A stretch of 21,270 nucleotides of DNA, taken from the NCBI GenBank assembly GCA_026710565.1, contig JAPOQV010000387.1, positions 1-21,270 on the forward strand, written 5' to 3'. Positions 2,543 through 20,469 of the stretch are shown here, piece after piece. The stretch comes from Spirochaetaceae bacterium. Its GTDB lineage: Bacteria > Spirochaetota > Spirochaetia > SZUA-6 > Bin103. The notes under the pieces are model-generated. The model was given only the letters and a program-made list of their open reading frames with translations. It was not told where the DNA came from and did not search any database. A program made the translations under genes and the position numbers. Each line of letters begins with the position of its first letter. The first letter of the stretch is position 1.

Positions 2543-3579
2543 TCAGCGGGCGTCCAGGCGCTCCAGCTCGTCGTCGATGGTGGCGGCGATCGTCTCGAAC
2601 GGTGCCGCGCCGGTCAGGGGGCGTCCGTTCACGAACAGCGCGGGCGTGCCCGACACGCCGGCCGCGGCTCCGGCGCGGATGTCGTCCCGCACCGTCTCGT
2701 GGTGGCGGCCGGAGTCCAGACATGCGTCGAACGCCGCGCGGTCCAGCCCGATGCGGCCGGCTTTGTCCTTGAGGTCGGGCACGGACAACGCGGCCTGCTC
2801 GGCGAACATGAGGTCGTGCATCTCCCAGAACATCGCCTGCTCGCCGGCGCAGAGCGACGCCTCGGCGGCTTTCTGCGCGTTGGCGTGGATGTCGGCCAGG
2901 GGGTAGTGGCGGTACACGATCCGGAGCCTGTCCCCGTACTCGCGTTTGGCGCGCTGCAGGGCCGGCTGGACCCTCGCACAGAACGGGCACTCGAAGTCCG
3001 AGAATTCGACGATGGTCACCGGCGCGTCCTGGGGTCCGAGGGTCGCGAACCCGTCGGCGGCCACGTCCACTCGGAAGGGTTCGAGACGGTAGTCGACCGC
3101 GAACCGCTGTTCCAGCACGCCGAGAAACTCCGTCTCGGCCTGTTGCTCCGCCTGTTGCCTGAGGAAGTCGCGGATCTGACCCGCCACCGCCCCCAGCGCG
3201 TACGGGATGCGGCTCTGGTTCTCGCGGTAGAACGCCGCGACTTCGGAGTCCTCGATCTGAGGCACCGACTCGTACACCGAGGCCATGATCGCCTCCACGG
3301 TCATCCCGGAGCGGCCGGCTTCCAGGTCGAGCAATCGTTCGTGCACGAGTTGGCGGAGGAACGTCTGCAGCACTTCGGCGTGGCTCCGGTCCGCTTCGAC
3401 CTGGCAGCGCAGGCGTTCGAGCTCGGTCTGTTCCAGGGAGAACGACGCCACCGTGAGGAGCTCGGCGCGCTGCACGGACTCCTCGCCGATGGTCGCCACC
3501 ACGTCATCCGCCCATGACGTCACGGAGCCGACGAGCAGGATGGCAGCCGCCAAGCAGAGGAGGCGGGCTGACGGACGTG

Positions 3580-3583
<4 letters not shown>
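2543..3583 (-). CDS. Secreted DsbA-family thiol oxidoreductase (copy 1, intact)
   Basis: The 346-residue protein begins with a signal peptide ([20 protein letters not shown]). A helical SurA/parvulin-N-like segment with Gln- and Glu-rich helices follows, up to about residue 150. The C-terminal half is a DsbA/BdbD-type thioredoxin domain (thioredoxin_4 style). It shows [20 protein letters not shown] with the CPFC redox site near residue 198, and [11 protein letters not shown] with the cis-proline near 313. It should act outside the cytoplasmic membrane on protein thiols or disulfides. Its ATG overlaps the TGA of the upstream copA remnant (ATGA, 3583-3580), so it was translationally coupled to a copper exporter. 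A second copy at 10986-11859 is a pseudogene, so this is the only intact one here. Because its own copA has lost its 5' half and promoter, what now drives this gene is unclear. Confidence 0.85.
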
Positions 3584-4927
<1,344 letters not shown>

Positions 4928-5022
4928 GCTGCCGATCCTGGCTACCTCCCCGCGTAGCTGCCAATCATTGCCCATGCAAGACGCGTTCGGCCGCCGGCAC
5001 GCTCCGCAACCTCCGTCAGGTG

Positions 5023-5717: not shown

Positions 5718-5798
5718 ATGGCGGCGGACGAGGAGCAGCGCCATACGCTTTCCGACCGAGCTCTGAAGGAGTATGGTTGCCCTGAAGCCCACGGATGA
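5718..5798 (+). CDS. Small ORF (26 aa) coupled to the NusG_II gene
   Basis: ATG at 5718 is preceded by GAGG at 5709-5712 (5-nt gap) and opens a 26-residue frame, starting MAADEEQRHTLSDRALKEYG, that ends with TGA at 5796-5798. That TGA overlaps the ATG of the NusG_II gene (ATGA), the layout of translationally coupled genes. The peptide is charged and matches nothing I know. An alternative overlapping 11-codon frame starts at 5773. The short length makes this a weak call. Confidence 0.3.
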   Translation: MAADEEQRHTLSDRALKEYGCPEAHG

Positions 5799-6154
5799 AA
5801 CCGCTTGACTACGTTGCCCTGTGCATGGCCGCGGCTCTGGTGGTCGTTGTCGCTCTTGCCGTCTACTCGGGCGGCGGCGACCGTACCAGAGTGCGCATCA
5901 CGGCACCGTCGGGCGAGTACCTGTTCGCATCAACCGCAGAGGACACGATTGTAGTCAGCGGTCCGATCGGAGACACTGTAGTTCAGATCGGAGATGGCGG
6001 TGCGCGTGTGCTCTCGTCGCCGGGGCCGATGCAGATCTGCGTCAAGGCCGGGCGCATTTCGCGCTCGGGCGCATGGCTTGCCTGCATGCCGAATCGGGTC
6101 TTTATATCGATCGAGTCGCGGCACTTCGAAGACATCGACGCGCGGAGCTATTGA
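5795..6154 (+). CDS. Membrane-anchored NusG domain II protein
   Basis: The 119-residue product has one N-terminal membrane segment (YVALCMAAALVVVVALAVYS, about residues 6-25). A single small beta domain follows with RVRITAPSGEYLF, IVVSGPIGDTVVQIGDGGAR and ICVKAGRISRSGAWLACMPN, ending in VFISIE. This is the NusG_II domain (PF07009, formerly DUF1312). Its hallmark is the I(C)VK-GxIxxxGxxIxCxPNxxxIxIE ending, including the two cysteines. Such stand-alone domains are common in spirochaetes and Firmicutes, and their role outside the membrane is not established. The domain is complete and the length is normal. The ATG overlaps the stop of the small upstream ORF. It is one of few apparently intact genes in this eroded half of the window. 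Confidence 0.8.
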   Translation: MKPLDYVALCMAAALVVVVALAVYSGGGDRTRVRITAPSGEYLFASTAEDTIVVSGPIGDTVVQIGDGGARVLSSPGPMQICVKAGRISRSGAWLACMPNRVFISIESRHFEDIDARSY

Positions 6155-6353: not shown

Positions 6354-6899
6354 TTGACGGCGGCGCGAGTCTCGTCACTCTGGCTGCCACACTCCAGTGA
6401 TGCCCGGGTATCCCGTACGGCGCTCCCGCCCGGCCTGCACTACAGATTGGACCAGGGGAAGACGTGGACGCCGAGCGCATTGCGCGGATTGGCCGGGCGT
6501 ATCACTGGACTCGCAGCCCATCCGGTCGATGCGAGCGCGATCGCGTTGGCTACCGTCATGGGACTCTACCTGTCCGATGACCATGCCTCTTCGGTTGCGG
6601 AATTGTGGGATGGCGGTCCGGTGACCGCGCTGGCGTTCTCCTCCGACGGACAGCGTTTGATGTTCGGCTCGAAACGGCTCTACCGGCTGGACCTCGCCGA
6701 TCGCATCGCACGCGAGGTCGCACTCCCGGTGTTAGCGCCAGACGAGGTCTTGACCTACCTAGCAATCAATCCCGCTTCGCCCGGAGAGATGGTTGTGTCA
6801 ACGTCTCATCTCAACGTCTTCCTGCTCGCGAGCGGGTCCGGGGACGGTTCGAAGCCGGTCGAGTGGCAGCGGATTCTGCGAAGCGGTTCAAGCGAATGA
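6354..6899 (+). pseudogene. F510_1955-type beta-propeller, C-terminal part only
   Basis: The frame reads GLHYRLDQGKTWTPS, then ITGLAAHPVDASAIALAT, GLYLSDDH, PVTALAFSSDGQRLMFGSKR and DEVLTYLAINPASPGEMVVS. These are successive propeller blades with an Asp-box-like xxDxGKTW turn. The order resembles the C-terminal half of the F510_1955 glycosylhydrolase-like family (LAxHPxDxxxxAxATxxGVYxSxD, then YLAINPxNPxE). I see no signal peptide and no earlier blades upstream in any plus frame, so the 5' half is missing. The nominal start is TTG at 6354, just after an in-frame TGA. The end at 6899 lies 39 bases from the convergent ccsA stop. The enzymatic function implied by the family name is not supported here. 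Confidence 0.5.
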
Positions 6900-6938: not shown

Positions 6939-8915
6939 TCAACGAATAGATATCCGGCGGCGACCAAGCAGGGTGATGGCCGTCAGGAACACGACCTCGA
7001 TCGCGCCGTAGATCAGCAGGCCGGAGAGCACTCCCTCGGTGAACCCGTAGGTGTGCAGGCCCACGCCGAGCTCGTTGATGCCGAACCAGGCGAGCATCAC
7101 CACCATGATGCCGATCACCGAGCCGACCGCCATGCCGTACTCGCCGATCATCTTGCCGAGACGCGCGTGGAAGAGGATCGCGCACCACAGCACGATCATC
7201 AGTGCGCCGTTCTCCTTGGGGTCCCATCCCCAGAAGCGGCCCCAGGACTGATCGGCCCAGATCCCGCCAATCATGGTTCCCGCGAACGACAGGATCAGCC
7301 CGAACGCCAGCGCTCCGAACAGCAGCCGGTAGGTGTGGCGCAGACGCGAACGGTCGCCACGCGCCTCGACGTACTGGAACAGGTAGACATGCCCGACGAA
7401 CCCCGCAAAGACGCAGGCGCAGTAGCCGAGAGTGATCACCACCACGTGCGTGGACAGCCAGAAGTTGGTATCCAGCACTGCTTGGAGTTGCCGCAGCGTG
7501 TCGCCTTCGGCCGCGAATTTGCCGGAGATCCACAGCAGCAGGAAGCCGATCGCCATCCCGCTGACGGCGCCCACACGATTTCCCCGGTAGCGCAGGCGCA
7601 GGAACAGCCCCGCGCCGGCCGCTCCCCAGGACACGAACACGAACGTCTCGTACAACGTGGTGACCGGCGGCCTGCCGTTGATGATCATGCGCAGCAGAAT
7701 GCCGCCGGTGTGGATGAGAAAGCCCAGCGCCAGGACACCCACGCTCGCCCGCTCGGCCAACGGGCGCCCGATCAGCATGGCCAGCAGCGCCAGCGCGGTA
7801 CCCACCAAGTACGCCCAGCGGGTGTACGAGAGCGGATCCACCCGCCGGTAGAACAGCTCCAGAGCGGGCCGGGGCAGCACCATGGCCGTCCCCAGACGCT
7901 CCTCCTGGACGCGGACGAAGGTCTGCGCCGCCAGGTCGAAGCGCGCCTGCCGCTCCTCGACGTAGGCCACCTGCAAGTCCCGGAGCGCAGTCAACTCCTC
8001 GGCGACCTGCGGCGTGATCTGCGGCTGTCCGAGGGCCTGCCACGGGCTCAGCCAGCGTTCGCCCTCGGTCGTCATCATCGGGATCAACGGCAGCGGCAAC
8101 GTGCCGTACGTCTGATCCCAGAGGCGCACGCTCCGCACCAGCCGCAACAGCGTCGCATCGGTCGCATCGAGCGTACCGGAGCGGCCGTGCTGATCGATGG
8201 CGGCGGCGGCGCGTTCCTCCAGAAGCGGCCGCCGGAGCGCCAGGTCCAGGTAGCTGTACGGACCGGGGCCGGGCAACTGAAGAACTTCCGCCGCCTGGTC
8301 CGAATCGACGAAGAACGCCTGTTCGTCGGGATAGGTGAAGCCGAACGCGGCGAGCAACCCCGAGAACTCGACCAGGTTGTTCCAGACCCGGATCAGCTCG
8401 CGCTGCACCGGGCTGCGCTCCTCGGCCGGCAACTCGGACGCCAGGGCTGCCAGCTCCTCGAGCTCCAGTCCCCCCGCCCGCAACTCCTCGAAGCTGTAGC
8501 GGGCGCGGCCGCGCGACGTCACGCCGATCGCCTCCAGCACCTCCGGGTTGTCGACCAGAAACACCTCGTCGCGATGGGTCTCCTGTGGCGCCAGCAGCAC
8601 GCGCGCCAACCAGTCGATCGCGGACTCGCCGGCGTAGCGCTCGCGACCCGAGTAGCGCAGCAGCGTGTTGCGGGCGTAGCTGTCGAGCGGCTTGGGACGC
8701 CCGTCCTCGATCACCAGCAACGGCCGTAGTGCGTCGGCGCTGGCCAGCCAGGGCTCGGGGGGAACGTATCCGGTGGAGCGGTCACCGCGTCCGAAGCGTC
8801 CGATCATCGATGCCGCCAGCAGGCAGAGCACCGCCAGCAGGCAGAGCAGCAGAATGCGGGTGGACCGCGTCATGCCGGCAGCGGGCGCGATCAGTGGGGC
8901 TGTATCTGCGCTCAC
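6939..8915 (-). CDS. ccsA: Cytochrome c maturation protein CcsA/ResC
   Basis: The 658-residue protein has a membrane segment at about 18-38 and a long extracytoplasmic part to about 365. A block of some eight membrane helices follows. The haem-handling WWD-type motif reads SWGRFWGWDPKENGALMIVL at about residues 555-575. Flanking histidines stand in GFLIHTGG, STHVVVITLGY, VGHVYLF and FHARL. With ResB it forms the system II synthetase that carries haem across the membrane and attaches it to CXXCH apocytochromes. The GTG start at 8915 overlaps the TGA of resB (GTGA, 4 bp), so the two are translationally coupled. The long N-terminal domain is typical of the larger CcsA type. The operon has no thioredoxin-like CcsX/ResA, which the system normally needs to reduce the apocytochrome cysteines. 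Confidence 0.92.
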   Translation of the reverse strand: MSADTAPLIAPAAGMTRSTRILLLCLLAVLCLLAASMIGRFGRGDRSTGYVPPEPWLASADALRPLLVIEDGRPKPLDSYARNTLLRYSGRERYAGESAIDWLARVLLAPQETHRDEVFLVDNPEVLEAIGVTSRGRARYSFEELRAGGLELEELAALASELPAEERSPVQRELIRVWNNLVEFSGLLAAFGFTYPDEQAFFVDSDQAAEVLQLPGPGPYSYLDLALRRPLLEERAAAAIDQHGRSGTLDATDATLLRLVRSVRLWDQTYGTLPLPLIPMMTTEGERWLSPWQALGQPQITPQVAEELTALRDLQVAYVEERQARFDLAAQTFVRVQEERLGTAMVLPRPALELFYRRVDPLSYTRWAYLVGTALALLAMLIGRPLAERASVGVLALGFLIHTGGILLRMIINGRPPVTTLYETFVFVSWGAAGAGLFLRLRYRGNRVGAVSGMAIGFLLLWISGKFAAEGDTLRQLQAVLDTNFWLSTHVVVITLGYCACVFAGFVGHVYLFQYVEARGDRSRLRHTYRLLFGALAFGLILSFAGTMIGGIWADQSWGRFWGWDPKENGALMIVLWCAILFHARLGKMIGEYGMAVGSVIGIMVVMLAWFGINELGVGLHTYGFTEGVLSGLLIYGAIEVVFLTAITLLGRRRISIR

Positions 8916-10057
8916 GACGCCTCCGCCCCGGCTGTGCGCCGCCGCCGCCCCGGGCGTGCCAGCGTCTGGATGAAATGGACGATCAGGCCGATGCTGATCA
9001 CGGCGGTGCCCACATACGGCACGATGCGGCCGCGATTCTCGACCACGGCCAGGGTCGAGTAGGCGGCGCCGGTGGCGTCGAACTCATAGGAAGCCTGATA
9101 GAAGGTGAACCCACCGAACCGGAGCGGCTTGTTCATCGAGATGCGCACCGGCCGCCGCGTGCCTGGCGCCTCGACGACCACGTCGCTCTCGAACGAACGC
9201 GGGGTGTCGGTGCCCGGGTGGAACTCGGCCCGGAATTCCTGCAGGCCGATGAGGGCCGGCAACTCGTAGCGTGTGCGGCGCAGGGAGAAGGAGTACCGCT
9301 TGCCGTCAAGGGTCACGCTGGTCGGCGCGGGATCAAGGGCCCACAGCGCGAGCGACGCGCCTTCCGAGCCGGTCCCGACGTCCAGGATGGCTCCCGGCTG
9401 GTTCTCTTCCGGGCGGACGGAGCGCCGCCGCGGGCGCAGCTCAGCGATGCCGCGGGCGTTCAGGAACGGGCTGCTCCGCCCCTCTGCCGGCAAGTAGGCG
9501 TCCGCGCTCGGGTGGTTCTCTTCGACGAGCATGGTCAGGCCGAGCGCCGGCAGGGTCACCTGATCGCCGGGAGCGAGCTGACGCAGGTCGACCGCGCTGA
9601 CATCGCGAGCGTCGGCCCCCTCGCGCCACGCGGCAATCTCCCACTCGTGGTAGTCCTCACTCGTGTTCCGCCACTCTCCCTCCTGCAGCCTGAGGAAGGA
9701 CTCCTGGGCGAAGTAGGAGACGAAGAACATGCCGAAGAACATTACGAACATGCCGAGGTGGGTGATCAGGATGCCCACGCGCGACCACCGGTACACGAAC
9801 CGCACGGCGGTCACCGCCACGAGGTTGACGAACAGAACCCACAGCACGAGTTGCGCGCCGGGCAACGGCACTATGCCGCCGACCAACGTGATCCAGGCTC
9901 CGAAGTAGCGCTGCTGGGCGTCGTACAGACCGTGCGACACCTGATGAAAGGTGCCGAGCAGGGTCAGCAGGAACAGCAGCGCCAGGGAAACCACGGTGAC
10001 GCGCAGGTCTATCGCGATCCTGAGCAGCGGGCTGCGCCTGATCGCCTGAACCAGCAT
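8912..10057 (-). CDS. ccsB: Cytochrome c maturation protein CcsB/ResB
   Basis: The 381-residue protein matches ResB (PF05140). Membrane segments lie near residues 20-40, 65-85 and 95-115 (LVLWVLFVNLVAVTAVRFVY, then GILITHLGMFVMFFGMFFVS). A large extracytoplasmic domain follows, with the signature ISMNKPLRFGGFTFYQASYE, and a last helix (VPYVGTAVISIGLIVHFIQT). It is the partner of CcsA in system II haem attachment. ATG at 10057 has AGGAG eight bases upstream, inside the last codons of the lipoprotein gene, whose stop is 5 nt away. The three genes form one tight operon. Confidence 0.92.
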   Translation of the reverse strand: MLVQAIRRSPLLRIAIDLRVTVVSLALLFLLTLLGTFHQVSHGLYDAQQRYFGAWITLVGGIVPLPGAQLVLWVLFVNLVAVTAVRFVYRWSRVGILITHLGMFVMFFGMFFVSYFAQESFLRLQEGEWRNTSEDYHEWEIAAWREGADARDVSAVDLRQLAPGDQVTLPALGLTMLVEENHPSADAYLPAEGRSSPFLNARGIAELRPRRRSVRPEENQPGAILDVGTGSEGASLALWALDPAPTSVTLDGKRYSFSLRRTRYELPALIGLQEFRAEFHPGTDTPRSFESDVVVEAPGTRRPVRISMNKPLRFGGFTFYQASYEFDATGAAYSTLAVVENRGRIVPYVGTAVISIGLIVHFIQTLARPGRRRRTAGAEAS

Positions 10058-10062
10058 CGGCG

Positions 10063-10692
10063 CTACTCCTGGCTCCCGTACCCGCCGGTGGAGGATCGCG
10101 GGCCGAGGGAGCTCAGGAGCTCGATGAACGCTGCGCGCTGTTCGCCCAACACGCCGGCCGGCGCCTCGGCCTTGACGAACATCGTCTGCCCGCCCGCGGA
10201 CGCGATCGCCGCAAGGAACGCGGTCTGGTCGCGGCCGGACACGAGGGGCGTGAAGTCGAAGAGCGTGAAATCGAGGTTGCCCCGTACAGCGGTCGCATCA
10301 TCGAGGAGCGAGCGTACCCGCTCGGGAGGCAGGTCCAGCCCGAGCTGCGTGAGCCAGCGGCGCACGTTCGCTTCCACGCCGCCGGCGTCACCGGCCAGCA
10401 CGACCAAGGTGCTCTCACCCCCGCCCGGCAGCCCGAAACGGGCAACTCGCAGCCCGTCCCCGGGCAACTCGCTCCAGTCGGCCGGAGTGACCCAGCGCCA
10501 GTTCCCGTCGCTGCCCGCGACCGAGCCGGTCTGGCTACCGGTCGAATCGAACAGCGCGCCGACCGGCGTCGGCGCCACCGTCACCTCCCGATAGCTTCGG
10601 ATCTCGATCTTTCGGTCACAGCCGGCGAGCGACACGAGCGCCGTCAGCGCGATTGGGAGGAAGACGAGCTTCCGTCGAGTGGTCGAACCCAT
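10063..10692 (-). CDS. Lipoprotein of unknown function, first gene of the ccs operon
   Basis: Starting at ATG 10692, the product (209 aa) has a textbook lipoprotein signal: GSTTRRKLVFLPIALTALVS followed by the lipobox LAGC. A globular part with NWRWVTPADWSELPG, ARFGLPGGGESTLVVLAGDA and GGVEANVRRWLTQLGLDLP comes next. This W-x-x-P-x-x-W...GG-x-x-x-NV-RW pattern recurs in extracytoplasmic proteins of unknown function. The frame is open to another ATG at 10857. That start is only about 4 nt downstream of the inferred transcription start of the CueR-type promoter, so a leaderless 264-aa form cannot be excluded. The extra 55 residues look non-conserved and would bury the signal peptide, so I prefer 10692. 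It is tightly joined to resB and may assist cytochrome c maturation or copper handling; this is inference. Confidence 0.7.
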   Translation of the reverse strand: MGSTTRRKLVFLPIALTALVSLAGCDRKIEIRSYREVTVAPTPVGALFDSTGSQTGSVAGSDGNWRWVTPADWSELPGDGLRVARFGLPGGGESTLVVLAGDAGGVEANVRRWLTQLGLDLPPERVRSLLDDATAVRGNLDFTLFDFTPLVSGRDQTAFLAAIASAGGQTMFVKAEAPAGVLGEQRAAFIELLSSLGPRSSTGGYGSQE

Positions 10693-10867
10693 GACCCCCG
10701 CCCCAAGGTAGAACCAGCGACGGGCTCGCGGGATCCCGAACGCCGAGCCGATGAAGGCGATCACGGTGATGAATACCCTTGGATCGTTGTGCCGCAAAGG
10801 CTCCGGGCATCTGGAGGGCGCGAGTGCGAGCCACCTCATGGAATCCTGGATCGCCATGCTTGTGCAA

Positions 10868-10898
10868 AGGATCTACCTTCCAGGAACAGGAAGGTCAA
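10868..10898 (-). promoter_or_regulatory. CueR-type promoter/operator of the lipoprotein-ccsBA operon
   Basis: On the minus strand TTGACC (10898-10893) and a weak -10 GATCCT (10873-10868) are separated by 19 bp, the long spacer of MerR-family promoters. Inside is a perfect dyad: ACCTTCC (10875-10881), 7 bp, GGAAGGT (10889-10895). This is the CueR operator pattern known from E. coli copA. The weak -10 fits an activator-dependent promoter. Confidence 0.75.
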
Positions 10899-10913
10899 GA
10901 GGGCGTTTAATCG

Positions 10914-10945
10914 GGTAGTGGGTCACTTTGAAGTAACCCACTACC
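10914..10945. terminator. Strong hairpin between dsbA pseudogene and ccs promoter
   Basis: GGTAGTGGGT (10914-10923) pairs perfectly with ACCCACTACC (10936-10945). The inner ACTT/AAGT can extend the stem after one mismatch. It lies about 40 nt past the stop of the minus-strand dsbA pseudogene and just before the ccs promoter, so termination or insulation is the obvious job. No U-run follows on the minus strand, so it is not a classical intrinsic terminator. Confidence 0.45.
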
Positions 10946-10985
10946 TGTGATCGACCGCAGGGACTTCGCAGTTAAGGTTGAGGAG

Positions 10986-11859
10986 TCATCGCGTGCCGAG
11001 CCGCTTCAGCTCGTCGTCGATGGTGGCCGCGATCGTCTCGAAGGGCACCGCGCCCGAGAGCGGGCGGCCGTTGACGAACAGGGCGGGCGTGCCCGACACC
11101 CCGGCCGCGGCGGCGGCGCGGATGTCCATCCGCACCGTCTGCTGGTGCCGGCCGGTGTCGAGGCAGGCGTCGAACGCGACACGGTCCAGTCCGATCCGCC
11201 CGGCTTTGTCCTTAAGGTCCGGCACCGACAGGGTGGCCTGCTCGCCGAACATCAGGTCGTGCATCTCCCAGAACTCGCCCTGCTCCCCGGCGCAGATTGA
11301 CGCTTCGGCGGCTTTCTGAGCGTTCGGATGAATGTCCGATAGCGGGCAGTGACGATAGACCAGGCGCAGCCTGACCGCATACTCCCGCTTGGCCCGCTCC
11401 AGGGCCGGCTGCACCCGCGCGCAGAACGGGCACTCGAAGTCCGAGATGTGCCGCGACGTCCTTCAGCCCGTACGGGATGCGGTCACGGTTGCGCTGGTAG
11501 AACCCCTCGATCTCTTCCGTGGAGACCGGCGGCGCCGACTTGCGGGCCGATGCCAGCATCGCCTCCACCGTCGTCCCGGTTCGTTCGGACTCCAATTCGA
11601 GCAGACGATCGTGTACGATCTCGCTTAGAAATGTTCGCAGCACCTCGTCGTGCTGGCGGTCCGCTTCGTATCCGCAGCGCAGGCGTTGGAGCTCGGTGTC
11701 TTCGAGGGCAACCGCCGCCGCCGTCATGAGCTAGGCACGTTGCACCGGCTGGTCGCCGATGATTGCCACCACGCCGTCGTCGGCCCACAGCGTAGAGGCT
11801 CCGGCGAGCAGCAGGGCCAATCCCAGCCAGACTCGGCTCTTCGCCCCGGGACCGGTCAT
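10986..11859 (-). pseudogene. DsbA-family oxidoreductase, copy 2, inactivated
   Basis: The frame starts at ATG 11859, overlapping the copA stop (ATGA). It encodes a signal peptide ending ASTLWA and IIGDQPVQRA, then meets TAG at 11733-11731, where copy 1 has GAG (Glu). A second lesion lies near 11445-11460. Sequence corresponding to the end of the helical domain and the first thioredoxin strand is missing, a net loss of about 170 bases by length comparison with copy 1, and the frame changes. After the gap the CPFC site and the GTPALFVNG cis-proline loop are still present in another frame. With a nonsense codon plus an out-of-frame deletion, no functional enzyme can be made. The conserved remaining sequence suggests the loss is not ancient. 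Confidence 0.9.
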
Positions 11860-14150
11860 CGGACCGACCTCAGGCGGAGCGCATTGGCGATCACCGACAC
11901 CGACGACAGGCTCATCGCCACGGCGGCGATGACCGGCGAGAGCAGAACGCCCAGAAACGGATACAGGACGCCGGCCGCCACCGGCACGCCGAGGGCGTTG
12001 TAGACGAATGCGAAGAACAGGTTCTGGCGGATGTTGCGCATGGTAGCGCGGGCGAGGCGGCGAGCGCGAACGATACCGTCCAGGTCGCCCTTCACCAAGG
12101 TGATCCCGGCGCTCTCGATCGCCACGTCGGAGCCGGTCCCCATGGCGATGCCGACGTCCGCCGCGGCGAGCGCCGCCGCGTCGTTCACCCCGTCCCCGGC
12201 CATCGCGACCTTCAGGTTCCGGTCGCGGAAGGAACCGACCAGCGCGCCCTTCTCCTCCGGGCCGAGCTCCGCGTGCACCTCGTCGATGCCCAGCTCGCGG
12301 GCGATCACCGCGGCCGTGCGCGGATTGTCACCGGTGGCCATGACGATCCCAAGACCGGCGTCGCGCAGCGCGCGGACGGCCGCCGCCGCCGTCTCCTTCA
12401 CCATGTCCGCGACGGCGATGATGCCGGCGGCTGCGCCGTCGACCGCGACGAACAGCACCGACTTTCCGTCCTCCTGAAGGTCCTGTGCGGTGTGCTGCAG
12501 CGAACCGGGATCGACGCCGGCGTCGGCCATCATCGCGGTGTTGCCGAGGGCGACCTCGTGTCCGTCTATGCGGCCCCGGACTCCCTTGCCCGTGACCGCG
12601 AAGAACCGTTCCGGATCTCCGTCGATACGCTCGGCGCCGCGGTCGCGGGCGCCTTCCACGACGGCGTCCGCCAGCGGGTGTTCGGACCCGCGCTCCAGCG
12701 CGGCGGCCAGCGCCAGGACGCGGGAGGACGGGATCTCGCCTGCGGGAATGACGTCGGTCAGCGCCGGCCGGCCGCTGGTCAGGGTGCCGGTCTTGTCGAC
12801 GATCACGAGGTCCACGTCTGCGAACCCTTCCAGGGCCTCCGCATCGCGGATCAGCACCCCGGAACCAGCGCCCCGTCCGGTCGCCACCATGATCGACATC
12901 GGCGTGGCAAGGCCGAGCGCGCACGGGCAGGCGATGATCAGGACGCTCACCGCCGCGCTCACGGCGAAGGACAGCGCAGGGGGAGGTCCGAGGACGATCC
13001 ACGCCACGCAGGCGATGACGGCAACAGCGACGACCGCGGGCACCAGCCACCCCGCGACCCGGTCGGCCAGGGCCTGGACCGGCGCTCGGCTGCGCTGCGC
13101 CTGCGCGACCAGGTCGATGATGCGGGCCAGCAGGGTATCGGCGCCGATCCGCTCCGCGCGCATCACGAACGAGCCGGACCGGTTCAGTGTCCCCCCGGTC
13201 ACCGGATCGCCGGCCACCTTCTCCACGGGGATCGGCTCGCCGGTTATCATGCTCTCGTCCACGGAGCTGTGGCCGGCAAGTACGGTGCCGTCGACCGGGA
13301 CCGTCTCTCCGGGCCGGACGCGCAACCGGTCACCCGCGCCCACCTGCTCGAGCGGCACGTCCTCTTCGCCGTCGTCGTGGACGCGCCGGGCGCCAGGCGG
13401 CGCAAGGTCGACCAGGGCGCGCAGGGCGTCGCCGGTGCGTTCGCGCGCCGACAACTCCAGCACCTGACCGGCAAGGACCAGGACGAGGATGACCGCCGCC
13501 GCCTCGAAATAGGCTGGAGGCAACCCGTGCGCGTCGCGCAACTCCGCCGGGAACAGGCCGGGTGCGAGGACCGACGCCAGGCTGAACAGGTAGGCTGCTG
13601 CCGTTCCCAGGGAGATGAGCGTCCACATGTTCGGGCTGCGGTTCCCGATCGAGGCCCAGCCGCGTTCGAACACGGGTCTGGCCAGCCACACGACGATCGG
13701 GGTCGCCAGCGCGAGTTGCAGCCACACGTGGAGGCGGGCGCCGAGCCACTCGGCCACGGGCACCCCCAGGTGCACGCTCATCTCCAGCAGGAAGACCGCG
13801 AGCGCCAGCGGCGCGCCGATGCGGAGCCGGCGGCGGAAGTCGATCAGCTCCGGGTTCGGTCCCTCAGTGGCAACGGGCGTCATCGGCTCCAGCGCCATGC
13901 CGCAGAGCGGGCAGGCGCCGGCCTCCTCCTCGACCACCTCGGGATGCATCGGGCAGGTGTAGCGGTTGCCCTGCGCCGCCGCGGCCGGCTCCGGCGCGGG
14001 CCGCTCGTCCAGCCACTGCTCCGGAGCTTCGGCGAACCGGTGCATGCAGTGCGGGCAGCAGAAGTGGTAGCGGCGGCCTTCGTGCTCCAGGGAGGGGCCG
14101 CCGGCCTCCGGATCGACTGTCATGCCGCAGACCGGATCGGTGGTCGTCAT
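11856..14150 (-). CDS. copA: Copper-exporting P1B-type ATPase (copy 2, intact)
   Basis: The 764-residue protein starts with a YHS/TRASH-like cysteine domain ([10 protein letters not shown]...[12 protein letters not shown], about 5-45). A heavy-metal-binding domain follows ([20 protein letters not shown], about 63-85), replacing the usual ferredoxin-like HMA domain. After four membrane helices come the actuator loop [11 protein letters not shown] (about 300), the CPC metal helix [12 protein letters not shown] (about 407) and the phosphorylation site DKTGTLT (about 450). [16 protein letters not shown] and [10 protein letters not shown] (about 650) follow, with final helices ending [17 protein letters not shown]. 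All catalytic motifs are present. It pumps Cu(I) (possibly Ag(I)) out of the cytoplasm. It lies directly behind a CueR-type promoter and its stop overlaps the dsbA pseudogene start. The ATG at 14150 is about 3 nt from the predicted transcription start, so initiation may be leaderless. Confidence 0.93.
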
Positions 14151-14159
14151 GGGACCCTC

Positions 14160-14190
14160 AGAATAAAGCTTCCAGTCACGGGAAGGTCAA
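14160..14190 (-). promoter_or_regulatory. CueR-type promoter/operator of copA
   Basis: Minus strand: TTGACC (14190-14185), a 19-bp spacer, then TATTCT (14165-14160). The dyad is AGCTTCC (14167-14173), 7 bp, GGAAGGT (14181-14187), with one mismatch between arms. The -10 ends only 10 bases before the copA ATG. Confidence 0.8.
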
Positions 14191-14262
14191 GGCAGTGACA
14201 ATGGTCTACACCACATAGGTCCGGCTGAGTTCCATGTCAGGGCATGCTCCGAGCGGTAGTGG

Positions 14263-14395
14263 CTACGAGGAGTCGCCGTAGTAGGTCAGGGCCTGCTCGA
14301 AGGCGGCGATGCCGATCTGCGAACCGATGATGCGGCCCGGAAGGTCGTCCACCTACGGATGGATGCCGCCGTAGAGGCGGGAGATGCGGGCCTCG
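14263..14395 (-). pseudogene. C-terminal remnant of a vanadium haloperoxidase/PAP2-like protein
   Basis: Minus-strand codons read ARISRLYGGIHP, stop (TAG at 14355-14353), then VDDLPGRIIGSQIGIAAFEQ and ALTYYGDSS before the final stop at 14263. SRxYGGIHxxxDDxPGRxxGxxIGxxAF is the C-terminal active-site region of vanadium-dependent haloperoxidase/PAP2-type proteins, where the histidine binds the phosphate or vanadate. The in-frame stop falls directly after GIHP and nothing recognisable precedes it, so only a scrap remains. It fills part of the copA-cueR spacer. Confidence 0.5.
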
Positions 14396-14668
14396 CCCCG
14401 TCCCGGTCGCTGTTGTCAGGGTCGTAGCCGAGCTCCTTCATCCCAGCGGCGCGCCACGGAGTGCTCGGGGTCGGTCACCGCGATGCCGGCCACAAGCGCG
14501 AACGCGATACAAGAAGGCCGGTCGAACGCGAGAGGCCGGTGGCCCCGCCTTCCACCAACAACGATCGGCCACAGCCGCCTCCATACGAGCCACGACGCCC
14601 CTGCCTACTTGGCCAACGGCCCGCGGGCGAACCCACAGTCGCTGAAACTTGCAGCGTGCCGCGGGACG
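14396..14668. other. Spacer upstream of cueR without recognisable gene
   Basis: I see no convincing protein or RNA here. Short minus-strand runs such as AGIAVTDPEHSVARRWDE may be further eroded parts of the neighbouring haloperoxidase-like remnant, but stops interrupt them. Confidence 0.4.
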
Positions 14669-14699
14669 TTGACCTTCCAGTTACTGTAACGTGTATAAC
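14669..14699 (+). promoter_or_regulatory. CueR-type promoter/operator of cueR copy 1
   Basis: TTGACC (14669-14674), a 19-bp spacer, then TATAAC (14694-14699). The dyad is ACCTTCC (14672-14678), 7 bp, GTAACGT (14686-14692), with 5 of 7 right-arm bases as in the perfect site. This is the strongest -10 and the weakest dyad of the four, suggesting a higher basal level and autoregulation. Confidence 0.7.
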
Positions 14700-14718
14700 G
14701 ACTACGGAGGCTGTGGCC

Positions 14719-15120
14719 ATGAACATCGGCGAGGTTGCGGAGGCATGCGGGCTGTCTGCCAAGACGATACGCTATTATGAGGAGATCGGACTGGTCAGTC
14801 CGGATCGCAGGGCAAACGGCTACCGGCACTTTCCGGATGCAGAGGGACACAAGCTCAAATTCGTGTCACGAGCACGATCGCTCGGCTTTGCGATTGAGAG
14901 TTGCCGCGCCTTGCTCGCCCTTTACGAGGATCCTGCTCGCGCCAGCGCGGACGTTCGCGCCATCGCCCAGCGCCATGTCGACCGTATCGATCGGAAGATC
15001 TCGGAGCTGCAGGGCATGCGCGACACGCTCAGTTACTTGGTGGAGCGCTGCCAGGGGGACGACCGTCCGGACTGTCCGATCCTGGAAGACTTGGCGAGTG
15101 CGCCAGGAACAGGACGATGA
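14719..15120 (+). CDS. cueR: CueR-like MerR-family copper sensor (copy 1)
   Basis: The 133-residue regulator has the MerR winged helix (MNIGEVAEACGLSAKTIRYY, then EEIGLVSPDRRANGYRHF). A dimerisation helix and a metal loop follow. The loop has Cys111 and Cys119 (C-QGDDRPD-C-PIL), seven residues apart as in E. coli CueR Cys112/Cys120. Ser76 in DPARASADVR matches CueR Ser77, the position linked to recognition of +1 metals. It should bend the 19-bp-spacer promoters when Cu(I), Ag(I) or Au(I) binds. ATG at 14719 has GGAGG at 14706-14710, 8 nt upstream. Its TGA overlaps the cytochrome ATG (ATGA). Its own promoter carries the operator, so autoregulation is likely. It is about 80% identical to the copy at 17929. 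Confidence 0.9.
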   Translation: MNIGEVAEACGLSAKTIRYYEEIGLVSPDRRANGYRHFPDAEGHKLKFVSRARSLGFAIESCRALLALYEDPARASADVRAIAQRHVDRIDRKISELQGMRDTLSYLVERCQGDDRPDCPILEDLASAPGTGR

Positions 15121-15806
15121 CCCAGCGGCGAAGCTCCGACAACGAAAAGCGCCGATCGAAGCACTCCGATAAGGAAGATGCAGCGAAGCAGCGCAAAGGC
15201 TCCCCCGGCAACAAGCGCCGATCGAGGACGCGCAGGAAGGAGCAAGGGACAGACAAGCGGCCGCTCATGCTTGCCGTGGGATTGGGGGTGCTCGTCGTCG
15301 CCGCTGGCGGTGCCCTCGTGATTCTCTGGCCCGAGCAGGACCCGTCGCCGACCGCGGCAGGAGCTCTCTTCCGCCCCGACGACCGGCAGGTGGTTGAACA
15401 AGGGCAGTACATCTATCGCGTCGCATGCGCGCAGTGCCACGGCGTCAACCTGGAAGGACAGCCGAACTGGCAGCAGCGGGGCGCCGACGGTCTGATGCCT
15501 GCTCCGCCTCACGACGCGAATGGGCATACGTGGCACCACCCCGATTATGCGCTGTTCGAGATGACAAAGTACGGCATGCAGCGGTTCGCGGGCCGTGACT
15601 ACCGTTCCGCGATGCCGGCCTATCAGCGGATTCTCACGGACGAGGAGATCATCGCCGTGATGTCCTACATCAAGAGCCGGTGGCCGGCGTCGATTCGCAC
15701 GCAGCACGACCAGATCAACGCAAGGAACGCGGCGCAGTCCAGCCTGCATCGATGGGACGCACTGACCGCGCTGGCGGCCCGGAGCCGACTAACCAGACTC
15801 ACCTAA
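15117..15806 (+). CDS. Membrane-anchored c-type cytochrome (copy 1)
   Basis: The 229-residue protein has a very basic N-terminus of about 48 residues rich in Lys/Arg. One membrane segment follows (PLMLAVGLGVLVVAAGGALVI, about 49-71), then one class I cytochrome c domain. The haem site CAQCH is at about 104-108, followed by GVNLEGQPNWQQRGADGLMP and APPHDANGHTWHHPD. Methionine candidates for the sixth ligand occur in MTKYGMQRF and in SAMPAYQ. The NLEGQPNW...PPHD.GHTWHHPD pattern recurs in small cytochromes near copper-resistance genes. The haem domain should face the periplasm. It is translationally coupled to cueR (ATGA). The basic tail is about 32 residues longer than in copy 2. It ends in a 4-base overlap with the convergent GH36 gene. 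Confidence 0.88.
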   Translation: MTQRRSSDNEKRRSKHSDKEDAAKQRKGSPGNKRRSRTRRKEQGTDKRPLMLAVGLGVLVVAAGGALVILWPEQDPSPTAAGALFRPDDRQVVEQGQYIYRVACAQCHGVNLEGQPNWQQRGADGLMPAPPHDANGHTWHHPDYALFEMTKYGMQRFAGRDYRSAMPAYQRILTDEEIIAVMSYIKSRWPASIRTQHDQINARNAAQSSLHRWDALTALAARSRLTRLT

Positions 15807-17812
15807 CCGTGGTCTCGGGGCGAGTCCACTCGATATGAGAGCAGCCTGGCCGACGCCGGCTGCAGCGCGACAGACAGCCCGCGGGTGAGCTGCTCACCTG
15901 TCAGGCTCTCCCCGACACCGGAGCTCTCGTCTCTGACCCGGTAGCGGGCCGCCGGGTCCACGGCCTGCAGAGCAATCCGCTGTTCGCGCGTTTCCCCCGC
16001 GACGCGAAAGGCGAAGACGATGCCCTCCTCGGATCCCGCGGCAAACTGCATGACGTTCCAGTCCGCCTCCGACTGCGGCTGCGGCAGCAGCCGGTAGTAG
16101 TCGAGCATCAACAGATGGCGCACCCGCTTGTAGACGTCGATCCAGTGGCGGGCGCGCTCCCTGGCCGCGGCCGGCCACTCGGAAATCGTGCCGTGCAGGA
16201 AGAGCTCCCCCGCCATGCGGCTCAGGAAGGAGAGATCGGTGAGCTTCGCGTCGGGGTGGAGCGCCATGCCGGGCCGGCCGCGCAGGCCCTTGCTCGGCGG
16301 CCATCCCAGGGAGCTTCCAAGGTAGTTGGCGGGGAAGAACGCGTTACCGCCGGCCTGCATCGCGTGGTAGAGGTGCGGATGGGCGTTGCTGTCGCTGCAC
16401 CAGCAGGCATGGTGTCGCCGCATGGTGCCGAAGTCCAGCCGCTGGCCGCCTCCGGCGCAGCACTCGAGCATCAACGAAGGGTGCCGCTCGGCAAGCGTCT
16501 CCCATACCCGGTAGAGCCCCGCGAGGTGGGCGAACTTCACCTTGAGCGTCGGGTCCACGGCCTGGAAGATGGGGTGCCCGTCCATGTTGTAGTCCCAGCG
16601 GAGGTAGCGCACGTGGTAGCGCTCGATGAGGCCGTCCAGGAGCTCCAGGAAGTGGTCGCATGCCTCCGGGAGGCCGAAGTTGTAGAGCCGGCGGTGCGGG
16701 GTCCAGGCGCTGCCGAGCTCCGGCCCGTAGAAGAACTCGGGGTGCTCCCGCAGGATCCGGGTGCCGGGCTCGGCCTCCGCGTCGATGAAGAGCCCGAAGC
16801 GCATGCCCTGCTCCTCGACCCGGTCGACCACCCGCTCCAACCCGGCGGGGAACTTGGCGGGGTCGGGGTACCAGTTGCCGCATCCGCCGGGGAACCGGCC
16901 CTCGTACCAGGCGTCATCGACGATGAACACCTCGACCCCCAGCTCGGCGGCGGTGTCGATCTGGGGGTAGATGTCGCGGTCCGTGTACGGCGCCTGGATG
17001 CCGGGCCAGATGGTGTAGGCCACCGGCGGCACCACCCGGCGTCCTTCGTGGCGGGGAGTGACGTGCTCCCTGATGTAGCCGCGGCTCCGGTTGGTCGCCT
17101 GCTCGAAACCCCCCTCGAAGAAGATCACGTGGGCCGGCGGCAGCTCCAGCGATTCGCCGGGCGCCAGCACCAGGCAGCTCACCGCCGGTCCCGCCTCGGC
17201 AACCAGGATCTGGTCATCCGGCTCGTAACCGACGCTCATCGTCCAGCCGGCGGACCACTCCAGCCCGATGATGAAGCCTGCGCCATCCGGCTCGATGCCG
17301 GGGCTGACGAAGGCGATGGGCAGGTCCTTGGCGGAGGACTGGTCGCCCTCCGCCGACAGCTCGACACCGTGGCGTGAGTGGGGGAACTGCAGGAGGTCCC
17401 ATCGCGTCCAGTAGGCGCCGCGCGGCGGATAGCGGCCGCCGGGGTCGCCACCGCCGGCGGAGCTCATCACGCGCGGTGGGGTGCGGATGTCACCGATCGA
17501 AAGCAGCAGCGGGGAGAGGGCGGTGAGCGGCTGCAGAGCGGCGGCACCGGTGTTGGTGAGCGTCGTCCGGTAGACGGCGAAGCGGGCCTTGGGGTTGCAG
17601 CGCACGCGCACGACCGCTTCGAGCCCGCGATCCGACGCGAACCTGAGCAGCGTGCGACTGTCGTCCTCGGTTGTCTCCTCGAGTGGATGCCAGGAGAGGA
17701 GGCGCTCCGCGACCCTCACGCCGAATCCTGGTCCGTTCCGCATCCTGTGGGCCAGCTCTCCCGGTGCCGCACGCCGCAGGAGGTCGACCACGGTCCGGGT
17801 CGGTTCGCTCAT
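15803..17812 (-). CDS. Alpha-galactosidase, GH36 family
   Basis: The 669-residue enzyme has an N-terminal beta-sandwich and a TIM barrel of the GH36/melibiase type (PF02065). Seen are VEVFIVDDAWYEGR (about 295), FGLFIDAEAEPGTRI and LRWDYNMDGHP (about 403, where the Asp after Trp is the predicted nucleophile). ECCAGGGQRLDFGTMRRH and CWCSDSNAHPH (about 472, predicted acid/base Asp) follow. No signal peptide is visible, so hydrolysis of alpha-galactosides probably occurs in the cytoplasm. It sits on the opposite strand between the two cueR-cytochrome pairs, head to head with the second and tail to tail (4-base overlap) with the first. It has no apparent link to copper. The ATG at 17812 is 66 bases from the cueR copy 2 promoter, which points away. 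Confidence 0.88.
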   Translation of the reverse strand: MSEPTRTVVDLLRRAAPGELAHRMRNGPGFGVRVAERLLSWHPLEETTEDDSRTLLRFASDRGLEAVVRVRCNPKARFAVYRTTLTNTGAAALQPLTALSPLLLSIGDIRTPPRVMSSAGGGDPGGRYPPRGAYWTRWDLLQFPHSRHGVELSAEGDQSSAKDLPIAFVSPGIEPDGAGFIIGLEWSAGWTMSVGYEPDDQILVAEAGPAVSCLVLAPGESLELPPAHVIFFEGGFEQATNRSRGYIREHVTPRHEGRRVVPPVAYTIWPGIQAPYTDRDIYPQIDTAAELGVEVFIVDDAWYEGRFPGGCGNWYPDPAKFPAGLERVVDRVEEQGMRFGLFIDAEAEPGTRILREHPEFFYGPELGSAWTPHRRLYNFGLPEACDHFLELLDGLIERYHVRYLRWDYNMDGHPIFQAVDPTLKVKFAHLAGLYRVWETLAERHPSLMLECCAGGGQRLDFGTMRRHHACWCSDSNAHPHLYHAMQAGGNAFFPANYLGSSLGWPPSKGLRGRPGMALHPDAKLTDLSFLSRMAGELFLHGTISEWPAAARERARHWIDVYKRVRHLLMLDYYRLLPQPQSEADWNVMQFAAGSEEGIVFAFRVAGETREQRIALQAVDPAARYRVRDESSGVGESLTGEQLTRGLSVALQPASARLLSYRVDSPRDHG

Positions 17813-17877
17813 GGGTGCGGCAGACTCTACGACCGACGCGCGTCACCCGCCAACCGCGAGGCCTCATCAGGCCGGGG

Positions 17878-17908
17878 TTGACCTTCCAGTTACTGGAATG
17901 TGTTCTAT
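17878..17908 (+). promoter_or_regulatory. CueR-type promoter/operator of cueR copy 2
   Basis: TTGACC (17878-17883), a 19-bp spacer, then TTCTAT (17903-17908). The dyad is ACCTTCC (17881-17887), 7 bp, GGAATGT (17895-17901), with one mismatch. The left half and spacer (ACCTTCCAGTTACT) are identical to the site of copy 1. Confidence 0.8.
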
Positions 17909-17928: not shown

Positions 17929-18330
17929 GTGAACATCGGCGAAGTCGCGGAGGCGTGCGGTCTGCCCGCGAAGACGATTCGGTACTACGAGGAGATCGGC
18001 CTGGTCAGCCCGGACCGGAAGGCGAACGGCTACCGCGACTTTCCGGAGGCGCAGGGGCACAAGCTCGCCTTCGTGGCGCGCGCCCGATCGCTCGGCTTCT
18101 CGATCGGGGACTGCCGCGCGCTGCTCGCGCTCTACGACGACCCCCACCGTGCCAGCGGCGACGTCAGGGAGATCGTGCGGAGTCACGTCCGCGGCATCGA
18201 TCGCAAGATCGCGGAGCTCCAGGGCATGCGCGACACGCTCGACCACCTGGTGGAACGCTGCCACGGCGATGAACGTCCAGAGTGCCCGATCCTTGACGAT
18301 CTGGCGAGCGCGCCGGGGACCAGGAGATGA
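17929..18330 (+). CDS. cueR: CueR-like MerR-family copper sensor (copy 2)
   Basis: The 133-residue paralogue of the 14719 gene differs at about 27 positions by eye. Conserved are the winged helix (NIGEVAEACGLPAKTIRYYE), Ser76 in DPHRASGDVR and the metal loop C-HGDERPE-C-PIL with Cys111 and Cys119, so both copies look able to sense Cu(I). The start is GTG at 17929, with GGAGG at 17916-17920 eight bases upstream, exactly the layout of copy 1 apart from GTG for ATG. The stop overlaps the cytochrome start (ATGA). Its changes lie mainly on the dimerisation helix and outside the metal loop, so the two could form mixed dimers; this is inference. Confidence 0.9.
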   Translation: MNIGEVAEACGLPAKTIRYYEEIGLVSPDRKANGYRDFPEAQGHKLAFVARARSLGFSIGDCRALLALYDDPHRASGDVREIVRSHVRGIDRKIAELQGMRDTLDHLVERCHGDERPECPILDDLASAPGTRR

Positions 18331-18920
18331 AGCGGGGCCAGGGCGCTGGCAAGCGGGACGGGAACAAGAAGCGACCGCTTCTCCTGGCAGGCGCCCTGGT
18401 GGCGCTGGCCGGAGCCGGCGTGGGCGCGTTCGTGCTCTTCTGGCCCGAGCGGGACCCGTCGCCGACCGTGGCGGGAGCTCTGTTCCGTCCCGACGATCGC
18501 CGCGCCGTCGAAGAGGGCAGCTACATCTACCGGTTCGCCTGCGCGCAGTGCCACGGCGTCAACCTGGAGGGACAGCCGAACTGGCAGCAGCGGGGCGCCG
18601 ACGGGCTGATGCCGGCTCCTCCTCACGACGCGACCGGGCATACGTGGCACCACCCCGATCAGGCGCTGTTCGAGATGACCAAGTACGGCATGCAGCGGTT
18701 CGCCGGTCGTGACTACCGTACCGCCATGCCCGCCTATCAGAAGACCCTGACGGACGACGAGATCATCGCCGTCATGTCCTACATCAAGAGCCGGTGGCCG
18801 GCGTCGGTCCGAAGGCAGCACGACATGATCAACGCCAGGAATGCGGTGCAGTCCAGCCTGCATCGATGGGACGCGCTGACCGCGCTGGCGGCTCGGGCCG
18901 CAAGCGAGCGCCGGGGCTGA
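18327..18920 (+). CDS. Membrane-anchored c-type cytochrome (copy 2)
   Basis: The 197-residue paralogue of the 15117 gene has a short basic tail of about 16 residues, one membrane segment (PLLLAGALVALAGAGVGAFV) and the cytochrome domain. The domain shows CAQCH, GVNLEGQPNWQQRGADGLMP, GHTWHHPDQALFEMTKYG and TAMPAYQKTL. The haem domain is almost identical to copy 1; most change is in the N-terminal tail and linker. ATG at 18327 lies in the ATGA overlap with cueR. It should be anchored to the membrane with its haem outside. Its maturation requires haem attachment such as by the ccsBA pair at 6939-10057. Confidence 0.88.
   Translation: MKRGQGAGKRDGNKKRPLLLAGALVALAGAGVGAFVLFWPERDPSPTVAGALFRPDDRRAVEEGSYIYRFACAQCHGVNLEGQPNWQQRGADGLMPAPPHDATGHTWHHPDQALFEMTKYGMQRFAGRDYRTAMPAYQKTLTDDEIIAVMSYIKSRWPASVRRQHDMINARNAVQSSLHRWDALTALAARAASERRG

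Positions 18921-20397: not shown

Positions 20398-20469
<72 letters not shown>

Follow-up and report, generated by a model that had tools for sequence, protein, structure and literature searches.

A stretch of 21,270 nucleotides from a Spirochaetaceae bacterium (contig JAPOQV010000387.1; "the window" means the whole of it) carries four promoters with operators of the type recognized by the copper sensor CueR: one before the exporter gene copA, two before pairs of cueR and cytochrome c genes, and one before an operon encoding a lipoprotein and the haem-attachment proteins ResB and CcsA (the ccs operon). CueR with bound Cu(I) activates promoters having a 19-bp spacer, CopA exports Cu(I), and ResB-CcsA attaches haem. 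Judging from these sequences, we consider it reasonably probable that CueR, once it has bound Cu(I), turns on copper export along with a membrane-anchored cytochrome c and the maturation machinery for that cytochrome, and the best reading is that they are induced together because periplasmic copper poisons cytochrome c assembly.

In the regulon that we infer from these operators, a rise in cytoplasmic Cu(I) would lead either CueR paralogue, bound within the 19-bp spacers, to activate all four promoters. CopA would move Cu(I) out to the periplasm, and the same signal would raise two membrane-anchored monohaem cytochromes c along with the lipoprotein-ResB-CcsA system, the likely purpose being to sustain cytochrome c assembly and periplasmic electron transfer under attack by exported Cu(I). 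The cytochrome would be the redox carrier of the copper-defence set, co-produced with the machinery that matures it. That copper poisons the assembly of cytochrome c is established by biochemistry; a haem-attachment enzyme under a copper sensor would, if the regulon is real, be a genetic answer to it, suggesting an organism that responds to toxic copper by producing fresh cytochrome c. Such a regulon would add CueR to spirochaetes and make the role of a cytochrome found in copper islands testable.

Four promoters with CueR-type operators

The preliminary description of this DNA had placed a common TTGACC hexamer, 19-bp spacer and CueR dyad before copA, before both cueR-cytochrome pairs and before the lipoprotein-ccs genes, and a scored scan bore this out. 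Of the 17 fixed bases of TTGACCTTCC-N7-GGAAGGT, 17 are matched by the ccs site (minus strand, 10898-10875), 16 by the copA site (minus, 14190-14167), 16 by the cueR2 site (plus, 17878-17901) and 15 by the cueR1 site (plus, 14669-14692). TTGACC and the 19-bp spacer are present in all four, with the operator inside the spacer; the dyad ACCTTCC-N7-GGAAGGT is perfect only at the ccs site, having two mismatches in cueR1 and one each in copA and cueR2. The hexamers found at the 19-bp distance are GATCCT (ccs), TATTCT (copA), TATAAC (cueR1) and TTCTAT (cueR2), those of ccs and cueR2 being weak -10 elements that agree with TATAAT at three of six positions. When the window was simulated 60 times with a first-order Markov model, the score never exceeded 14 of 17, with on average 1.9 matches at 12, 0.2 at 13 and 0.02 at 14. 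Reverse readings of the palindromic dyads score 13 to 15 (15 for the ccs dyad) and lack TTGACC; one further dyad, located within the copA gene, scores 13 on either strand (12458/12484). When the dyad alone was sought with up to three mismatches, five matches were found against 0.55 expected; the fifth (12461), lying within copA and lacking a -35 element, was rejected as an operator.

Both regulators exceed the TIGR02044 cut-off of 147.4 bits (cueR1 168.3, cueR2 155.6) and keep, as the preliminary description had stated, Ser76 and the CueR cysteines 111 and 119. Ser76 corresponds to Ser77 of Escherichia coli CueR, and the two cysteines are those of the metal loop. The cueR1 product was aligned to the E. 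coli CueR structure 1q05 and shares 59 to 63% identity with five CueR proteins from other loci; a sixth sequence in that alignment, at 29%, came from a frame read in the wrong phase. The assignment of both regulators to the genuine CueR family is thus supported at the sequence level.

For the gene that opens the ccs operon, 10692 is a more likely start than 10857, because relatives start there, which would give a leader of about 170 nt; in profile scans its lipoprotein product had no Pfam or NCBIfam match. The ResB and CcsA domains both score over their cut-offs and the motif WGRFWGWD, a WWD motif of haem-handling proteins, is present, which identifies a System II synthase; CcsA remains below the TIGR03144 CcsB equivalog cut-off (128.7 versus 187.6 bits). 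Neither the lipoprotein nor CcsA had a match on viral contigs, and the plasmids gave just two weak ResB matches, under genes annotated ccsA and covering 26% of the query.

The copA product carries the P1B-1 ATPase motifs CPC at 408, YNxxxxP at 717 and MxxSS at 746 and is by its sequence a Cu(I) ATPase of the P1B-1 type. Much of its surroundings is duplicated. The block of copA and the adjoining SurA-N/DsbA-like thioredoxin gene (dsbA) occurs twice in the window, with 79 to 83% DNA identity in the matched pieces, as does the cueR-cytochrome block (77 to 85%). Decay of the former is reciprocal: an intact copA stands beside a broken dsbA in the 10986-13203 block, and an open dsbA beside a truncated, frame-shifted copA in the 2543-4933 block. 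The window scan found no CueR-type site near the second dsbA copy and nothing scoring at least 12 of 17 upstream of the truncated copA. The ccs operon and its operator are single-copy and lie outside the duplicated stretches; that the ccs operator arose as part of the duplication was rejected, since no self-match of the window covers the site.

The cytochrome family and CueR sites in other genomes

The two cytochromes are 81% identical over 174 aa and have the marks of class I monohaem proteins, namely one CxxCH, the Pfam cytochrome c domain and, towards the C-terminal end of that domain, a methionine (Met134) that is invariant in 22 aligned sequences. Equally invariant are the motifs PAPPHD and GHTWHH and four histidines, H100, H105, H108 and H109 (cyt2, 18327-18920), which lie between CxxCH and Met134 and could possibly bind copper. 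An N-terminal helix is predicted for cyt2 (residues 16-37). The fold is that of a class I electron carrier, cytochrome cL being the nearest solved one; the Foldseek matches were weak, none reaching E <= 0.001, and the solved structures were general class I cytochromes only.

This cytochrome family belongs to copper islands. Of 7,999 proteins scored in a database search, 5,179 matched, though some of these may lie outside the family. A separate scan of genome contigs gave 577 loci, the best 80 of which bore titles of Proteobacteria and one Phycisphaerae. A copA or cueR homologue lies within 5 kb of the cytochrome in 34 of the 80. Among 142 neighbouring genes (within 400 bp and under 2 kb, with copA-sized genes excluded) the commonest families listed, 25 of 126, include CopC (14 genes), DUF4396, of unknown function (13), multicopper oxidase (9), DUF411 (8), YkuD (8), histidine kinase (5), CusF (4) and MerR (4). 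A CueR site stands 60 to 185 bp before the cytochrome in four loci (L052, L062, L068 and L074). Cytochrome matches occur in 282 of 72,556 plasmid records, 133 of them conjugative; two of three plasmid regions hold a multicopper oxidase and DUF411 near the cytochrome, and the third holds a metal-sensitive regulator and DUF305 without either. One relative lies on a contig of a viral collection (L086, IMGVR_UViG_3300007790_001678), with no operator scoring at least 13.

The strict pattern TTGACCTTCC-N7-GGAA was sought in 47 genomes, obtained from 49 of the 80 cytochrome loci that were submitted. Seventy sites were found in 31 genomes; the reversed control occurred once in each of two. Of the 69 sites read (one in genome G129 was not included), 36 have copA downstream, a further six cueR and a further seven the cytochrome alone, so that 49 lead to one of these genes on the same strand within 3.3 kb; within the same limits 11 lead to the cytochrome. 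Because the genomes were chosen for carrying the cytochrome, these shares are not population estimates. A family scan was applied to 78 chosen downstream genes, all shorter than 700 aa (longer ones are mostly copA), except for a cueR and a fragment; in the remaining 76 it recorded MerR 15 times, cytochrome c 8 times, multicopper oxidase 4 times and Rieske twice (25 of 51 families listed). That ccm and ccs genes are absent under CueR sites is concluded, independently of this listing, from the WWD motif, which is missing from all frames of 60 operator loci and 80 cytochrome loci (positive control, five of five ccsA loci), and from a phmmer search.

Two of the sites (L107, G112:C13:6324-13390; L119, G140:C38:170097-177165) are followed by a Rieske protein (PF10399 and PF00355) and then copA; no cytochrome b or c1 gene was recognized by eye in the neighbouring frames, to which no family scan was applied. 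In each of these two genomes a small cytochrome c also lies downstream of another strict site (L104 and L118), and in L144 a cytochrome c' is the second gene after the copper cytochrome. This small and unsystematic set suggests that CueR regulons sometimes include periplasmic electron-transfer parts. We tentatively raise the idea, itself rather doubtful, that they can carry a respiratory repair kit, in which copper would induce spare or additional versions of those periplasmic electron-transfer components harmed by exported Cu(I), along with the machinery for making them: in the window the cytochrome c and its haem-attachment enzyme, elsewhere the orphan Rieske protein followed by copA, or the cytochrome with cytochrome c'.

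Known copper regulons and competing explanations

With the CueR regulon of E. coli (copA, cueO) the window shares copA as a target, the regulator family with its metal-site residues, the 19-bp spacer and a -35 element that overlaps the dyad. Unlike E. coli, the host is probably a spirochaete, and the 17 window proteins scanned include no multicopper oxidase; cytochromes c and a haem-attachment operon are present instead. In four alphaproteobacterial loci (L033, L040 and, both from Thalassospira, L020 and L049) a strict CueR site, copA, cueR and a cytochrome of the same family likewise stand in a row, but the DNA examined around the cytochrome encodes a haem-handling WWD protein in none of the 80 loci.

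The literature bears on the two halves of the proposal differently. The preliminary description knew of no described regulon in which CueR controls a dedicated cytochrome c together with haem attachment. For the cytochrome half this is not supported, because comparative genomics had predicted a CueR-type palindrome before the small cytochrome c genes c553 and c554 of Vibrio (Permina et al. 2006, PMC1526738). The Vibrio prediction resembles the window in the placement of that palindrome ahead of such a gene, and differs in that the accessible text mentions no CueR target among maturation genes. Its authors argue from cytochrome biosynthesis genes in copper resistance of Pseudomonas fluorescens, where no CueR site was found; the entry printed as their reference 37 is an E. 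coli paper on a different subject. Our cytochrome half extends the 2006 prediction. A CueR site before haem-attachment genes is the new part, seen nowhere else in the genomes examined. A CueR-ccs link is named nowhere in the literature surveyed, most subscription literature lying beyond that survey, and the word "cytochrome" is absent from PMC9948745 and PMC8478169. Copper excess in Corynebacterium glutamicum raises ccsA and ccsB about 3.6-fold, which the authors tie to haem and copper both being respiratory-chain cofactors (PMC3140484). There, as proposed here, copper raises System II genes, together with a periplasmic thioredoxin, alongside copper defence genes; in contrast, the regulator is not CueR, CopR reportedly binds only between copR and cg3286, and no ccs regulator is named in the accessible text (PMC3140484). 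Excess periplasmic copper hits cytochrome c maturation (PMC8456105, citing Durand 2015). The experimental connection of copper stress with cytochrome c assembly in these two papers (PMC3140484 and PMC8456105) favors the proposed regulon.

Among the genomes of a marine survey, those with CueR homologues all belonged to Pseudomonadota (PMC10141476). Outside this phylum, a Phycisphaerae metagenome-assembled genome (MAG; L072 and L091) also has a cueR, unless the contig is misbinned; its copA and cueR each lie behind a strict CueR site, and a small cytochrome c follows cueR.

Several results weigh against the proposed regulon. For all the perfection of its operator and 19-bp spacer, the ccs promoter has a weak -10 element that matches TATAAT at three of six positions. 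In 46 of the 80 cytochrome loci the 5 kb around the cytochrome yielded neither a copA nor a cueR homologue, although many of the contigs end early. An operator scoring at least 13 lies upstream of the cytochrome in 4 of the 80, against 1 of 80 in the reversed control, scoring 15; genes in the fetched loci were called as longest open frames, some with wrong starts, and for this reason L062 was missed despite a site 66 bp before its cytochrome. Twenty of the 69 strict sites lead to none of copA, cueR and cytochrome, and none of the 69 has a relative of the lipoprotein, ResB or CcsA downstream by phmmer. The order to which L015 (Hydrogenophaga) belongs was sampled with 120 genomes: ResB is present in 55, and a single strict site, never near ResB, in 14; in the eight with both, the two lie on different contigs or at least about 500 kb apart. 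Among 101 relatives of L072, whose degree of kinship is not stated, four sites in three genomes include none near CcsA among the matches listed, only the best CcsA matches being compared. CueR control as a general feature of ccs operons is rejected by these two samples; it may be specific to a lineage, or unique.

The ccs operon might be a housekeeping set for the whole respiratory chain, boosted by the CueR site only for the repair of copper damage, with the two cytochromes not its special clients. The modest rise of ccsA and ccsB in C. glutamicum and its tie to respiratory-chain cofactors (PMC3140484) fit this account, which we regard as possible but doubtful: a simple scan for a single promoter type found no other sigma-70-like promoter at 10600-11100, and of 15 window genes inspected for CxxCH only those of the two CueR-driven cytochromes encode it, though 21 kb say little about a genome. 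It is quite improbable that the dyad before the lipoprotein gene is a relic or an effectless binding site, with ccs transcribed from elsewhere, for example from the copA operon on the same strand. The region does hold relics, since the second copA copy has decayed, and ccs follows closely after copA and the remains of dsbA, with no intrinsic terminator found between them by the same scan. However, the ccs site is the only perfect one of the four, its -35 element and spacing are correct, and it lies outside every self-match; an inverted repeat without a T run, seen by eye at about 10944-10917, stands between dsbA and the site, and read-through from the copA promoter would still mean copper control. 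To chance resemblance of all four sites we give practically no credence and reject it, as the simulations stop at 14 of 17 and base composition alone predicts about 1e-8 perfect 17-base matches in the gap upstream of the lipoprotein gene.

In a further, unlikely account the cytochrome takes up the electrons released when Cu(I) is oxidized in the periplasm and feeds them into the respiratory chain, ccs being co-induced because its client is. Multicopper oxidases and CopC are among the neighbours in the 80 loci, the four invariant histidines could bind copper, and the fold is that of an electron carrier near cytochrome cL; electrons of periplasmic Cu(I) have been proposed to enter the quinol pool for GigT of Cupriavidus, an unrelated protein (PMC10304878). 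Against this account, the window proteins scanned lack a multicopper oxidase, the Foldseek matches are weak and the copper site is putative, so that electron transfer from Cu(I) to this cytochrome is speculation. As far as sequence tells, the cytochrome may be a substitute for damaged carriers, an acceptor of electrons from Cu(I) or a protein with some other function. Joint induction of export, cytochrome and maturation by CueR, with a protective role, is the reading that we favor.

Relatives and other features of the window

Among the matches listed, the nearest named relatives of the lipoprotein (77% identity) and of ResB (88%, and 53% for another ResB) are from Spirochaetaceae MAGs; an uncultured Spirochaetales clone is a further near relative (57%), and remoter ResB relatives (36 to 44%) are from Omnitrophota, Fibrobacteria and Kiritimatiellia. 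Matches on contigs of equal length suggest that lipoprotein, ResB and cytochrome (P0143, P0174 and P0007) co-occur in one relative (4,703,694 bases), lipoprotein and cytochrome (P0132 and P0083) in another (7,389,700 bases), and lipoprotein and ResB in relatives with contigs of 1,438,260 and 1,653,827 bases. Among the closest relatives, which include those with contigs of 4,703,694, 1,438,260 and 1,653,827 bases, ResB identity is 85 to 89%, and a cytochrome with 98% identity is encoded on a contig of 2,974,383 bases.

Table 1. Coordinates and supporting data of the principal features in the window
Feature	Position	Strand	Details
CueR-type promoter of lipoprotein-resB-ccsA	10868..10898	minus	TTGACC, perfect dyad, 19-bp spacer, GATCCT; 17/17 fixed bases
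Lipoprotein (209 aa), ccs operon gene 1	10063..10692	minus	start Met same as in relatives; no Pfam/NCBIfam match
resB (System II cytochrome c synthase, ResB part)	8912..10057	minus	PF05140 62.1 bits vs cut-off 24.6
ccsA (System II haem-handling protein, motif WGRFWGWD)	6939..8915	minus	PF01578 84.2 bits vs 29.9
CueR-type promoter of copA	14160..14190	minus	16/17 fixed bases; -10 TATTCT
copA, Cu(I) P-type ATPase, N-terminal YHS and HMBD domains	11856..14150	minus	TIGR01511 582.5 bits vs 397
Broken SurA-N/DsbA-like thioredoxin gene, downstream of copA	10986..11793	minus	pieces in different frames, stops
CueR-type promoter of cueR1-cyt1	14669..14699	plus	15/17 fixed bases; -10 TATAAC
cueR1	14719..15120	plus	TIGR02044 168.3 bits; S76, C111, C119
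cyt1, membrane-anchored monohaem cytochrome c, GHTWHH family	15117..15806	plus	PF00034 48.2 bits; one CxxCH; overlaps cueR1 stop
CueR-type promoter of cueR2-cyt2	17878..17908	plus	16/17 fixed bases
cueR2, GTG start, 80% identity to cueR1	17929..18330	plus	TIGR02044 155.6 bits
cyt2, monohaem cytochrome c	18327..18920	plus	PF00034 46.6 bits; model mean pLDDT 86.7
Second SurA-N/DsbA-like thioredoxin copy, open over 346 aa, CPFC	2543..3583	minus	PF01323 94.2 bits
Second copA, truncated and frame-shifted, spans copA residues 314-762	3589..4933	minus	tblastn

The window has a G+C content of 69%. A melibiase-like gene (PF02065, 15803-17812) separates one cueR-cytochrome pair from the other and points away from the cueR2 promoter. 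A small NusG domain II protein (PF07009) is encoded at 5795-6154 and is followed by a 181-aa frame without a family (6354-6899), convergent with ccsA. A tRNA gene (RF00005) is located at 20398-20469. At the left end, a direct repeat (1-106 and 256-361, 87% identity) occupies the beginning of an open frame whose later part matches MTHFR (PF02219).

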